This document shows, piece after piece, positions 41,009 to 47,585 of a stretch of DNA of 64,000 bases. Position 1 is the first letter of the stretch; every line of letters begins with the position of its first letter. The position numbers were made by a program, and so were the translations under genes. The notes under the pieces were generated by a model that saw only the letters and a list, made by a program, of their open reading frames with translations, did no database searches and was not told the origin of the DNA. The stretch comes from Aquificota bacterium (GTDB lineage: Bacteria; Thermosulfidibacterota; Thermosulfidibacteria; Thermosulfidibacterales; B14-G1), in assembly GCA_015486015.1 (NCBI GenBank), contig WFSL01000027.1, positions 11,869 through 75,868 on the forward strand. Direction: 5' to 3'.

Positions 41009-41950
41009 TCAGCTTAGGTCCCAGTGGAATGTCCTTTCGAGATACCGCTCTGCTGCATGGGCTGCTGTGGCCCCATCCCCCACTGCAGTGGAGACCTGGC
41101 GGAGGATCTTGCGGCGCACATCTCCTGCGGCAAAGATGCCTGGCACGCTGGTCTCCATGTTCTCTCCTGTGATCACAAATCCCTCTGCGTCCAAGTCTAC
41201 CACGCCTTTGAGGAACGCACTATTTGGTCTCCATCCTACAAATAGGAAGAGGCCTAATACCTTCAGTACTTGCTTTTCCCCTGACTCCAGGTTCCTGACC
41301 CTTATCCCTTCTAAAAGGCCTTCACCAATAAGCTCATCCACGGCGGAAGACCAAAGCACCTCTACCTTATCGCTTTGAAGTAGCCTCTCTTGCAAGATCC
41401 TGGCTGCCCTTAGCTTGTTCCTCCGGTGGATGAGGTACACCTTCTTTGCGAACTTGGTGAGATAAAGGGCTTCTTGAACGGCGGTGTCTCCACCGCCCAC
41501 AACAGCTACATTTTGTCCTTTGTAAAATGGAGCATCGCAGGTGGCGCAGAATGAGATACCCCTACCAATGAACTCATCCTCGCGGGGCAGCCCCAGCCTC
41601 TTGGGTGATGCACCAGAGGCCACCACCACTGTCTTTGCCTCCAGCCAGTCGCTGTCCACATATACCACCTTAAATGCCCTGTCTTCTTCAAGGGCCCGGA
41701 CCTCACCCTGCCTAATGGGCACATTTAGCTTGTCTACTTGGGCTTTGATCCTGCTCACCAATTCCATGCCCGTTATCCCTTCTGGGAAACCTGGGTAGTT
41801 CTCCACCAGATCAGTCATGGCGATCTGTCCCCCTGGGGCCACTCTCTCCACCAAGAGCACATTGAGCCTGGAGCGTGCAGCGTATAGTGCAGCGGTGAGG
41901 CCTGCAGGTCCTCCCCCTACGATAATGAGATCGTATGCCTCTTTCTTCAT
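41009..41950 (-). CDS. trxB: Thioredoxin-disulfide reductase
   Basis: FAD/NADPH enzyme of 313 residues. FAD motif [17 protein letters not shown], redox pair CATC in [18 protein letters not shown] motif [13 protein letters not shown], and a C-terminal [27 protein letters not shown]. Follows the GNAT gene by 60 bases on the same strand; may be in the same transcript. Confidence 0.96.
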
Positions 41951-42010: not shown

Positions 42011-43159
42011 TCAAGGCATCTCATTCCGAGGAGAAGCTTTCAAGGTCATCTCATAGATCCGGTACCTCTTATACAGTCTTCCACCCAGCTTTTCTATGAA
42101 GGAGTTGATGGCATGGTTGTCCTCAAGGGTCCATGATAATTCCCCTCCGTGATATCCCCTTTTTCTCCCTGCCTCTAAGGAGTGGAGAGATAGTAATAGC
42201 TCCAGCCCTTTGTTTCTAAAGGCCTTTCTTACGCCCAGGGCGACGAGCCTCCCCTGGGTTATGTGCCTGGAGTAGAGGTAGAACTTGAATATCCCCAGTG
42301 GGAAGAGGCTGCCCTTCATCCTCTTGAAGACCTGGTTGTAGTCAGGGAGGCTGAGGGAGACCGCCACAGGTTCTCCGTCTGCCTTCTCTGCGATAAGGGC
42401 AAGATCCGGTACCACTAAGGGCTTGAGCCTCTTTGCCATGTGCACCACCTCTTCTCTCTTCAGTGGTACGAAACCCCAGTTAGCCTCCCATGCATCATTA
42501 TACACGGTGATGAAGCGTTCGAGCTCCTCATTGAATCTGCGCACATTGGCCTTGCGTATCTTGAAGCCGTAGCGCTTCTGGAGCTTCTCTGCAAGGTTGA
42601 GGACCTGAGAAGGCACATCCCTCCAGATTTCAAACCAGTATGCATAGAGATCCTTGGCCTTGGTGAAGCCGTAGCGCTCGAGGAAGTCCTTATAGTATGG
42701 TGGATTGTAAGGCATCATGATCACAGGGTCCTCGTTAAACCCCTCGATAAGCAGGCCGCATTCGTGGTTTGTAGAGAAGGAGAGGGGACCCCGCATTACC
42801 TCTATCCCCCTTTCCCGAAGCCACTGCTCCCCAGCATTTAAAAGCTCCTTTGCCACTGCGTAATCCTTTACCGTTTCAAAGAAGCCAAAGGCCCCCATCT
42901 TTTCTCCATGGAACTCCTCATATGCATGGTCTATGGTGATAGCGATTCTGCCCTGAGCACGGCCCTTGGCATCCCTAAGGAGGAAATACACGCCATCTGC
43001 ATGTGAGAAAAAAGGGTTCTTCTCTGGCCTTAAAAACTGGAGATGGTCTACCACAATGGGGGCCACCCAGTGGTTGTCGTAGCGGTAGACCCTCCAAGGC
43101 ATCCGGACGAATTCAATCAAGGCCCTCCGGTTAGCGGGATCAACCACCTCTACAGCCAT
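42011..43159 (-). CDS. GNAT-family acyltransferase (YghO-like; candidate ceramide-synthase type)
   Basis: A 382-residue protein with a C-terminal GNAT fold (about residues 200-375, LVALGVRKAFRNKGLELLLSLHSLEAGRKRGYHGGELSW) and an N-terminal half typical of the YghO group (RVYRYDNHWVAPIVVDHLQFLRPEKNPFF, RGPLSFSTNHECGLLIEGF, MMPYNPPYYKDFLERYGFTKAKDL). In Caulobacter a member of this group is the bacterial ceramide synthase bCerS. Here it directly follows an alpha-oxoamine synthase and a PaaK-like ligase, the sort of set needed to make and N-acylate a long-chain amino ketone. The lipid role is inference. Confidence 0.75.
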   Translation of the reverse strand: MAVEVVDPANRRALIEFVRMPWRVYRYDNHWVAPIVVDHLQFLRPEKNPFFSHADGVYFLLRDAKGRAQGRIAITIDHAYEEFHGEKMGAFGFFETVKDYAVAKELLNAGEQWLRERGIEVMRGPLSFSTNHECGLLIEGFNEDPVIMMPYNPPYYKDFLERYGFTKAKDLYAYWFEIWRDVPSQVLNLAEKLQKRYGFKIRKANVRRFNEELERFITVYNDAWEANWGFVPLKREEVVHMAKRLKPLVVPDLALIAEKADGEPVAVSLSLPDYNQVFKRMKGSLFPLGIFKFYLYSRHITQGRLVALGVRKAFRNKGLELLLSLHSLEAGRKRGYHGGELSWTLEDNHAINSFIEKLGGRLYKRYRIYEMTLKASPRNEMP

Positions 43160-43225
43160 AACTCCTCCCTTTCCCTTTGATCTTCCTCAAGAAAACCATG
43201 CTCTGGGCAGTGATGCAAGGGCTGT

Positions 43226-44410
43226 TTAGATGAGGCCCAATTCTTTGCCTGCTTGGGCGAAAGCATCCAGGGCCAGTGAGAGGTCCTCCTCTGTATGGGT
43301 GGCCATTAAGGTGACCCGAAGGCGGCTTGTGCCAGGAGGTACGGTAGGAGGCCTTATGCCCGCCACAAACACCCCATGCTTCAAAAGCATCTCGCTCATC
43401 TGCATGGTCTTATCCTCAGGGCCAATGATCACAGGTACTACAGCAGTGCCTTGGTTGGTGACATCAAAACCCATAGAGCTCAGTCCATCTACAAAGATTT
43501 TCACGTTGTGATGGAGCCTTTGGCGCCTCTCAGGCTCCTCTTGCATCAACCTTATGGCCTCTAATGCCACAGCCATATCTGCTGGGGGAAGGGCTGTGGT
43601 AAATATGAAGCTTCTGGCCTTGTTGATAAGATACTCCCTGAGGATTTTGCTCCCAGCTATGTAGGCACCAAAACCCCCCAGGGCCTTGCCCAAGGTGCCC
43701 ATTTGTATTGGCACCCTTTTGGTGAGGCCAAAGTACTCTACGGTGCCTGCACCTCTCTCACCCAAGACGCCGGTAGCATGGGCCTCGTCCACCATGATCC
43801 AGGCCCCATACTTCTCGGCCAGCTCCACCATCTCCGGCAAAGGTGCAATATCACCATCCATACTAAAGACCCCATCCACCAAAATCATCCGCCGCCGTCC
43901 CTTCTCATTCCTTAAGAGGTTCTCCAGGGCGTTCATATCCTTATGAGGGAAAACCACTACCTTGGCACGTGAGAGGCGGCATCCATCTATGATGGATGCA
44001 TGGTTGAGCTCGTCTGAGAAGGCCACGTCCCCAGGACCCAAAAGGCTGGAGATGATGCCCACATTGGCCATGTAACCGCAGTTGAATATCAGGGCAGTCT
44101 CAGTACCCTTAAATTTGGCTATGGCCTCCTCCAGTTTCTTGTGGAGGGTCATGGTACCTGATACCAAACGGGAAGCTGAAGCGCTGGTACCGTAACAATC
44201 TATAGCCTTCTTGGCCGCCTCTGTGAGTCTGGGGTGGTTCGCCAGGCCCAGATAGTTGTTGGAGCACATGAGCACCACCTCCCGACCGTCCAGGGTCACA
44301 CGAGGGGATTGGGCCGTCTCTATATTCCGCAAAAAGCGGTAACGACCCGCCGATTTTATGGCTGTTAGCTCTTGGGAGAGGGAGGTGTCCAGCTCTTTCC
44401 TCAATCCCAT
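43226..44410 (-). CDS. Alpha-oxoamine synthase (BioF / serine palmitoyltransferase-like)
   Basis: PLP enzyme of 394 residues that condenses an acyl thioester with an amino acid. Motifs: CSNNYLGLANHP, GTSASASRLVSGT, SDELNHASIIDG, MVDEAHATGVLGERG and the PLP lysine in GTLGKALGGFGAYIAGS. Overall sequence is closest in feel to BioF (8-amino-7-oxononanoate synthase), but no biotin genes are adjacent; a neighbouring GNAT acyltransferase and AMP ligase suggest a serine-palmitoyltransferase-like role. KBL is the third option. Start overlaps the ligase end by 10 bases. Confidence 0.8.
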   Translation of the reverse strand: MGLRKELDTSLSQELTAIKSAGRYRFLRNIETAQSPRVTLDGREVVLMCSNNYLGLANHPRLTEAAKKAIDCYGTSASASRLVSGTMTLHKKLEEAIAKFKGTETALIFNCGYMANVGIISSLLGPGDVAFSDELNHASIIDGCRLSRAKVVVFPHKDMNALENLLRNEKGRRRMILVDGVFSMDGDIAPLPEMVELAEKYGAWIMVDEAHATGVLGERGAGTVEYFGLTKRVPIQMGTLGKALGGFGAYIAGSKILREYLINKARSFIFTTALPPADMAVALEAIRLMQEEPERRQRLHHNVKIFVDGLSSMGFDVTNQGTAVVPVIIGPEDKTMQMSEMLLKHGVFVAGIRPPTVPPGTSRLRVTLMATHTEEDLSLALDAFAQAGKELGLI

Positions 44411-45603
44411 TTCCGCTTATCCTCCAGAAGCTTTCCCTCCCCCAGTTGGCCAATCTCCAAGAGCTTCACAGCATCTACTTTCAGACGGAAGGTCTCTCCA
44501 GCCCGCTTCTGGAGGGCACCCAGATCTTCTGGGGATACACCTTCTCCCTCTACCAGGAGGGTGAGGGTATCCCGTACCCCCTCTCGATCTACCACCACCC
44601 GAAGGGCCTTCGCCCAAGGGAACTCTCTACCTAAGGCCTTTACCTGATGGCCATGAATGAAGAGGCCCCTTACCTTGACAGCGTTTCCCACCCGGCCCAT
44701 GAAGCCTGCCAGTCTGGGAGAAGTCCACCGGCCACATGGGCAAGGATCCTCCAGGAACTTGGAGAGATCCCCTGTACCGAATCGGATGAGGGGATAGACA
44801 GGACTTAATAGGGTGACTACCACTTCACCCACCTTACCCAGGGGCAAGGGTTCTCCCGTGACAGGATCGCAGATCTGGACCACTATGTCTTGGGCCAGAT
44901 GGAGGCCATCCTTTTGGGAGCATTCAAAGCCAATGGTGCCTACATCGGCAGTACCATAACACTGGTAAGTGTCTATGCCCCATTCCTCCTCAAACATGTT
45001 TCGGAGATGGTTCGGCAAGGGCTCGGCAGAGACTAAGGCCTTTTTGATGGGAAATTTCCCGGGACCATGCCCTTTCTCCTGGGCCACCTCCAATAAGGCT
45101 GCCAGGAAGCTGGGGGTGCCTACAAAGCCTGTAATTCCCAGCCTAGTGATGATATTCACCTGGAGCTCCCTGTTCCCTACCCCCGTAGGTACTACCACGG
45201 CCCCCAATACCCTCAAGCCCTCATCATACATGAAGCCGGCAGGTGTAAGGTGGTAGGAAAAGGTGTTTACCACCAGATCTCCCGGGCCGAAGCCCGCTGC
45301 CTCTAAGGCCTGGGCCCTCCTCCAATAATCTGGCACCGCGCCCTGGGGATCGAAGATGGGTCCTGGTGACACAAAAATCCGAGCCAGGAAGGAAACATCT
45401 GCAGCCAAAAGTCCACCAAAAGGGGGGGTCTGAGTTTGGAGATCCCCCAGTTGGTCCTTCTTCAATACAGGGATCCGGGCTAACCCTTCCTCTCCATGGA
45501 TATCCTCGAGGGCCAAGCCTGCCTCCTCCATGCGCCTTCTTAAGACAGGGCATCTCTTCCATGCCAGGGCCAATGTCTCCTTTATTCTGGTGTCTATGTC
45601 CAT
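44401..45603 (-). CDS. PaaK-like (phenylacetate-CoA ligase family) AMP-forming ligase
   Basis: Adenylate-forming ligase of 400 residues, slightly shorter than phenylacetate-CoA ligase. It shows VGTPSFLAALLEVAQ, the adenosine region QCYGTADVGTIGFEC, RFGTGDLSKFLEDPCPCGR and a C-terminal EGKLLEDKRKW. Substrate unknown. Ligases of this family often activate aromatic or fatty acids as CoA or ACP thioesters; in context it may supply acyl groups for the oxoamine synthase or the GNAT enzyme. First gene of the minus-strand unit; divergent from the small ORF at 45761. Confidence 0.75.
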   Translation of the reverse strand: MDIDTRIKETLALAWKRCPVLRRRMEEAGLALEDIHGEEGLARIPVLKKDQLGDLQTQTPPFGGLLAADVSFLARIFVSPGPIFDPQGAVPDYWRRAQALEAAGFGPGDLVVNTFSYHLTPAGFMYDEGLRVLGAVVVPTGVGNRELQVNIITRLGITGFVGTPSFLAALLEVAQEKGHGPGKFPIKKALVSAEPLPNHLRNMFEEEWGIDTYQCYGTADVGTIGFECSQKDGLHLAQDIVVQICDPVTGEPLPLGKVGEVVVTLLSPVYPLIRFGTGDLSKFLEDPCPCGRWTSPRLAGFMGRVGNAVKVRGLFIHGHQVKALGREFPWAKALRVVVDREGVRDTLTLLVEGEGVSPEDLGALQKRAGETFRLKVDAVKLLEIGQLGEGKLLEDKRKWD

Positions 45604-46550: not shown

Positions 46551-47585
46551 TCATAGCTTTATTCTTATATTCCTCAATTCTTCTGCTGCCACCTCTGGGG
46601 GGGTGGGATTGATGTAAAAGCCTGTGCCCCATTCGAAGCCTGCTATTCTGGTCAGCCTGGGGATAAGCTCGATATGCCAGTGATAGTCATACTCAATGGT
46701 GCCCCAGTAATGGGGCTTGCCGGGGCGAGGAGTGAGAGAGGGACAGGTATGAAGGACAAAGTTATAGGGGGGATCGTTAAGCGTGAGCTTTATGCGCAGT
46801 AGCATGTCCTTCAAGGCCCTGGCCAAGACCAGAAGCTCATCGTCGGCGAGAAGGGCAAAGTCGTGGCGATGCTTCAATGGGAAGAGCCATGTTTCAAAGG
46901 GGAAGGAAGAAGCGAATGGGGTCCAGAGCATATAGTCACTGTCTGCCTTTACCACCCTTTTACCTATGGCGAGCTCTTGTTTGATGATATCGCAAAAGAT
47001 ACATCTCTCTTTTTTGAGATAGTGTTCTTGGGCCGTCTTCAGCTCCTGGATCACGATAAATGGGGTTACAGGGGTGGCGATGATTTGGCTATGGGAATGG
47101 GAGATGGATGCCCCTGCTGCTGCCCTATGGTTCTTGAAAACCAGGATGTAACGGAAACGCTTATCCTGCCTCAAATCCCTGATCCGTTCCCTGTAAGCCA
47201 ACAATACGTCTCTGATCTCCTCTACCGAGAGGTCGGCCAGGGAACGGTCATGGTCGGGATTTTCTATCACCACCTCATGGGCCCCTATACCCGCCATCCT
47301 GTCAAAGATACCTACCCCCTCCCTTTGCAGTTCCCCTTCTATGCGCAGGGCAGGGTATTTGTTTGGGGTGACCCTAACACTCCAGCCCGGGGTATTGGGG
47401 AGAGATCCTGGGGGACGTATGGCGAAGACCTCTGGTGGGGTTTTATCTTCATTGCCATAGCAGAAAGGGCAGACATGGAGGTGCCTCTCTTCTTCAGGGA
47501 TCTGATAATCTTTGGGCCTCCTTGCCCTTTCCACGGCTATAATTACAGTCCTGTGCCTAATGGGGTCCATCCTCAGCTCTGGCAT
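46551..47585 (-). CDS. galT: Galactose-1-phosphate uridylyltransferase
   Basis: HIT-superfamily enzyme of 344 residues that moves UMP between UDP-glucose and galactose-1-phosphate. It shows the catalytic HSHSQ in AGASISHSHSQIIATP, cysteine pairs CPFC and CIFC, and the second His region YDYHWHIELIPR. Members of this branch may also act on other sugar phosphates. Starts 2 bases after the GH57 stop; last gene of the six-gene minus-strand unit. Confidence 0.92.
   Translation of the reverse strand: MPELRMDPIRHRTVIIAVERARRPKDYQIPEEERHLHVCPFCYGNEDKTPPEVFAIRPPGSLPNTPGWSVRVTPNKYPALRIEGELQREGVGIFDRMAGIGAHEVVIENPDHDRSLADLSVEEIRDVLLAYRERIRDLRQDKRFRYILVFKNHRAAAGASISHSHSQIIATPVTPFIVIQELKTAQEHYLKKERCIFCDIIKQELAIGKRVVKADSDYMLWTPFASSFPFETWLFPLKHRHDFALLADDELLVLARALKDMLLRIKLTLNDPPYNFVLHTCPSLTPRPGKPHYWGTIEYDYHWHIELIPRLTRIAGFEWGTGFYINPTPPEVAAEELRNIRIKL

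Follow-up and report, generated by a model that had tools for sequence, protein, structure and literature searches.

A probable lineage-specific rearrangement places a ligase-bioF pair upstream of a bacterial ceramide synthase-family gene in a member of the Aquificota

Do a ligase, an alpha-oxoamine synthase, and a GNAT protein encoded side by side constitute a lipid-building operon? The locus that raises this question lies in a 64,000-nucleotide stretch (the window) of contig WFSL01000027.1 (C27) from the 43-contig assembly of an Aquificota bacterium (G000, the source genome) and comprises three intact open reading frames on the minus strand. These encode a PaaK-like ligase of the AMP-binding family (44401–45603, 400 aa), an alpha-oxoamine synthase with an Aminotran_1_2 match (43226–44410, 394 aa), and a GNAT protein (42011–43159, 382 aa). 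The ligase and oxoamine synthase frames overlap by 10 bp and a gap of 66 bp precedes the GNAT, exactly the layout given in a preliminary description of this DNA, which proposed a sphingolipid-like operon in a Desulfobacterota-like organism. The taxonomic part of that proposal is unsupported, as the same-genus relative (G001, a metagenome-assembled genome (MAG), isolate S016_37) is labelled Aquificota. Gene order in relatives indicates that the three genes meet at a junction specific to this lineage and do not form a conserved lipid operon, and we consider it highly likely that a rearrangement has joined a ligase-bioF pair, probably serving biotin synthesis, to a bacterial ceramide synthase (bCerS) gene cut off from spt, the serine palmitoyltransferase (SPT) gene.

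The arrangement of the same genes in relatives carries this conclusion. In G001 and in two genomes of the same family (G002 and G003), the GNAT gene follows spt, with the ligase and bioF forming a separate locus, and the three genes of the window occur together in no relative examined. Across the order, relatives with coverage share a block with the order ilvD-ilvB-ilvN-ilvC-psd-pssA-ychF-Spt-GNAT-trxB-S4-pdxA, some with a small membrane gene between GNAT and trxB (ilv, pssA, and ychF are named from our own reading of the sequences, psd from its Pfam model). In the source genome the left half of this block is found on another contig, C37, and the right half in the window. The flanks of the trio are divided accordingly: the upstream flank, from a galT-like gene (46551–47585, minus strand; synteny with L132) onward, corresponds to the ligase-bioF locus in G001, and the genes downstream of the trio (trxB-S4-pdxA, IclR, tatD, and metG) are those found at the GNAT locus in G002 and G003. 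The immediate downstream neighbor of the GNAT, trxB (41009–41950, minus strand; TIGR01292, 381 bits), stands in the same order in relatives L111, L112, and L115. Relatives retain each gene of the trio at 74–80% identity, and purifying selection acts on the GNAT (dN 0.14 and dS 2.4 against G001, with dS near saturation); all three are therefore real genes.

The oxoamine synthase of the window is, by profile model, motif, tree position, and elimination, assigned as BioF (8-amino-7-oxononanoate synthase). It scored 502.2 bits with the TIGR00858 bioF equivalog model (cut-off 426.45), with orthologues in two relatives at 497 and 494 bits, and fell far under the cut-off on all three serine palmitoyltransferase models. 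Its lysine motif reads GTLGKALGG, not the SPT-type GTFSKS. A phylogeny against BioF, KBL, and SPT was the check that the preliminary description had named for this enzyme, and a maximum-likelihood tree built from 42 sequences groups the window gene and its orthologues with BioF, Kbl, and HemA (99/97 support). The role of Spt in a lipid operon, which that description gave to this gene, is not supported. The genes bioA, bioB, and bioD were all found over their model cut-offs elsewhere in the source genome, which encodes only two oxoamine synthases (search at E≤1e-40); since the other one is SPT-type, the window gene is left as bioF by elimination. It differs from typical bioF in lying outside any bio operon and in having the PaaK-like ligase gene as its partner where bioW or bioC might be expected.

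That other oxoamine synthase, at C37:10200–11381, is by the same kinds of evidence the real Spt of this organism. It carries GTFSKS, as do its orthologues, its best NCBIfam model is the SPT model NF047600 (591 bits), and its best match in the PDB is the solved Sphingobacterium SPT (3a2b, 466 bits). It shares 57% identity with a Parabacteroides homologue, and in the tree it groups with the SPT enzymes of Escherichia coli BL21, Roseomonas, Parabacteroides, and Sphingobacterium. The gene lies beside psd-pssA, with the phosphatidylserine decarboxylase psd at C37:7876–8343. Order-wide, Spt-GNAT stands directly behind psd, pssA, and the YchF-like GTPase gene (L111–L116; L110 for C37 of the source genome), which places both serine-using lipid branches in one block.

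The GNAT is the only protein of the bCerS/YghO family in the source genome, and its assignment to this family of ceramide synthases appears secure from homology and predicted fold. Identity with E. coli K-12 YghO is 34% over 368 aa (E 5e-70), in agreement with the YghO-type, bCerS-like label of the preliminary description, and 35% with a Roseomonas homologue from a sphingolipid locus, whose gene lies ∼10 kb from genes for an acyl carrier protein (ACP) and an SPT-type synthase. The match to PF00583 is weak (E 1.2e-4); the AlphaFold model (pLDDT 92) has the tandem GNAT 7q3a as its best fold match (TM 0.65). In an alignment of 17 sequences the protein also retains every invariant column, which is true by construction of that column list. 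Among 80 named loci of the family from many phyla, an oxoamine synthase was found directly upstream (same strand, within 600 bp) in 56, and every one of these 56 was closest to the SPT-type query. A CerR-like epimerase was present in the fetched stretch of 45 of the 80, and neither a BioF-type synthase nor a PaaK-like ligase of the present subfamily was beside the GNAT in any. The yghO gene (ECD_02850) and Caulobacter CC_1154 were listed in 2022 as the ceramide N-acyltransferase gene aca (PMC9386255), and bCerS has been described as a peripheral membrane protein of the cytoplasm whose step comes after that of Spt (PMC11087976). The protein of the window resembles these enzymes as a full-length homologue (measured against YghO) with the tandem-GNAT fold and the conserved stretches of the family, encoded directly behind spt in relatives; it differs in that its gene here stands apart from spt, after bioF, with no CerR, ACP, or fatty acyl-AMP ligase (FAAL)-type ligase alongside. 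It most likely still works as a bacterial ceramide synthase. In E. coli BL21, yghO, a fatty acyl-AMP ligase gene (aasR), an epimerase gene (epi), an ACP gene (acpR), and spt lie in a row; E. coli K-12 MG1655 has an IS5 that overlaps yghO at its 5′ end (L150:5044–7341).

The organism thus very probably has a sphingolipid pathway of Spt and bCerS split over two loci, and probably makes ceramide-like lipids, a capacity already inferred for about 40 phyla (PMC11334938). Of the original proposal, the sphingolipid-like pathway stands, with its Spt on C37; the trio as its operon does not. Both outcomes that the preliminary description had itself named as refuting the operon were observed, the oxoamine synthase proving to be BioF-type in a genome with no other bioF and the trio being absent from relatives. 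An Spt-bCerS-CerR pathway is described for Caulobacter and for Black Sea metagenomes (PMC11087976, PMC11334938); in comparison, both Spt and bCerS homologues are present and, in the rest of the order, adjacent, whereas here they occupy two loci and CerR was not identified. A small lineage, with Spt and bCerS next to psd-pssA across its order, would thereby be added to the probable sphingolipid makers.

In the proposed course of events, a chromosomal rearrangement would have placed ligase-bioF directly upstream of the bCerS-family gene, parting the latter from its original partner spt, now encoded on C37 next to psd and pssA. The GNAT would act in the cytoplasm, probably as a peripheral membrane enzyme, and N-acylate the 3-ketosphinganine-type base that Spt produces, and the BioF of the window would make 8-amino-7-oxononanoate for biotin, with the ligase coupled to bioF perhaps supplying its acyl-CoA. 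The junction would be the 66-bp gap that runs from the stop of bioF to the start of the GNAT (43160–43225, minus strand). This gap resembles the Spt-GNAT spacer of G001 (score 9.0 against a shuffle mean of 2.9, z 4.1), partly through a shared ribosome-binding site. No terminator-like site was found in it, and the GNAT may therefore now be co-transcribed with bioF. The junction region of the window and C37 have no 16-mer in common, which argues against a repeat-driven misassembly. Two further accounts of the junction were considered and dropped. That the gap is what decay has left of the 3′ end of spt is unsupported (score 5.0 against a shuffle mean of 3.2), the G001 spacer giving the better fit, and a reciprocal exchange involving both oxoamine synthase genes was rejected because no 16-mers are shared and because the genes downstream of spt on C37 differ from those after bioF in relatives.

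Several points weigh against a rearrangement that links a biotin gene pair to a displaced ceramide synthase gene. The SPT score of the C37 gene lies just under the NCBI cut-off of 640. The source genome yielded no convincing CerR. BioF and Kbl form an unresolved fork in the 42-sequence tree, and a double BioF/Kbl function, as annotated for PDB entry 7poa, is possible for the window gene. Finally, the assembly is fragmented and the junction cannot be checked against reads.

The ligase is the one odd part of the locus. It shares its family by sequence with the PaaK phenylacetate-CoA ligases (4r1l, 2y27) and keeps their YGT-DVG, TGD, and CxCGR regions; it differs from them in being shorter, in falling below all NCBIfam cut-offs (best model paak_haloarch, NF041878, 179 bits against 700; TIGR02155, 137.7 against 646), and in its P-loop, where SSGTTGKP (SSGTTGxP in general form) is replaced by SPGPIFDP. 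Either SPGPIFDP or SPGPIYDP was present in nearly every close homologue read, from several lineages, which points to a PaaK-like subfamily with the ATP-binding loop replaced by another conserved motif. Members of this SPGPI[FY]DP subfamily include those at L130, L149, L136, and L306–L317, and the subfamily is present in 18 of 386 genomes (E≤1e-70). In other phyla the homologues lie mostly behind a Liv-type transporter or close to genes resembling those of 2-oxoacid:ferredoxin oxidoreductases, in some cases together with a CBS-domain gene (the latter two labels are our own reading of the sequences). G002 has two copies, one with bioF and one in a Liv transporter cluster (L149, L130; C35 and C28).

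The ligase-bioF pair is retained in G001, G002, and G003, and the overlap of ligase stop and bioF start reads ATGGGATTGA in three genomes of the family, whereas G001 has a variant start. Coupled to bioF in this way, the ligase is a possible pimeloyl-CoA ligase. The fullest form of this idea, in which a pimeloyl-CoA synthetase stands in for BioW and the ligase and bioF make up a biotin operon, with the GNAT as an unrelated passenger, is a refinement compatible with the rearrangement described above; we regard it as rather unlikely. In its favor, the overlapping pair is retained in four genomes of one family, BioW (PF03744) did not turn up in any of the 10 genomes searched, and the search for BioC gave only generic methyltransferases and none over the cut-off, although this cut-off is strict, with only 1 of 14 controls passing. 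As neither BioW nor a BioC over the cut-off was found, the ligase may have a pimeloyl-CoA role. Against it, BioF-encoding genomes from the sister family lack any homologue of the ligase subfamily, G005 has the ligase without bioF, the P-loop is replaced, and the homologues elsewhere favor transporter or oxidoreductase neighborhoods. That an enzyme lacking the standard P-loop replaces BioW and feeds the coupled BioF is, on these sequences, unlikely. If true, this would be a new entry route into biotin synthesis, by an enzyme that adenylates its substrate or transfers acyl groups and whose ATP-binding loop is unusual. A literature search on PaaK with pimeloyl-CoA and biotin found no paper.

Could the window oxoamine synthase instead be mainly a glycine C-acetyltransferase (Kbl), with biotin made through another enzyme or not at all? 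The fork in the tree would allow it, and the Kbl-type model NF005394 gave the window gene 455, only slightly under its cut-off of 460. The bioF model, however, clearly leads and exceeds its own cut-off, bioA, bioB, and bioD are present, and the source genome holds no other bioF candidate, so that we judge this reading very unlikely. An error of assembly, with the GNAT really still following spt, appears just as improbable. The 43 contigs and the joint occurrence of spt and GNAT in other genomes would fit such an error, but it is countered by the lack of a common 16-mer, by a gap that resembles the ancestral spacer only from just past the bioF stop, and by both contigs running well past the breakpoint with other genes. 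Least probable is a genuine three-gene lipid operon, in which the ligase activates a long-chain acid for condensation with an amino acid by the oxoamine synthase and the product is then N-acylated by the GNAT: adjacency, the 10-bp overlap, and a bCerS-like GNAT speak for it, but the trio recurs in no relative and in none of the 80 named GNAT loci, the oxoamine synthase is BioF-type, and the SPT-type enzyme is elsewhere. With the operon goes the part of acyl activator that the preliminary description had given the ligase, which in relatives lies with bioF and apart from Spt-GNAT. Adjacency alone would have assigned a BioF to lipid synthesis, a tempting pathway call that the rearrangement reading corrects.

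Two side observations concern other contigs of the source genome. On C9, a CerR-like epimerase gene overlaps a gene for a hemL-like class III aminotransferase (L278:7299–9598), a pair that recurs in G002, G003, G004, G005, G007, and G008. The best candidate for CerR, at C9:31301–32245 (28% to the BL21 enzyme and 36% to a CerR-like epimerase), adjoins a hemL-like aminotransferase, and relatives show this pairing again. Among the NCBIfam models HpnA matches the candidate best, with a score far under the cut-off, and it is not claimed as CerR. On C37, small genes resembling toxin-antitoxin pairs (PIN-domain-like and MazEF-like) are found at L137:10993–17807, some kb from bioB.

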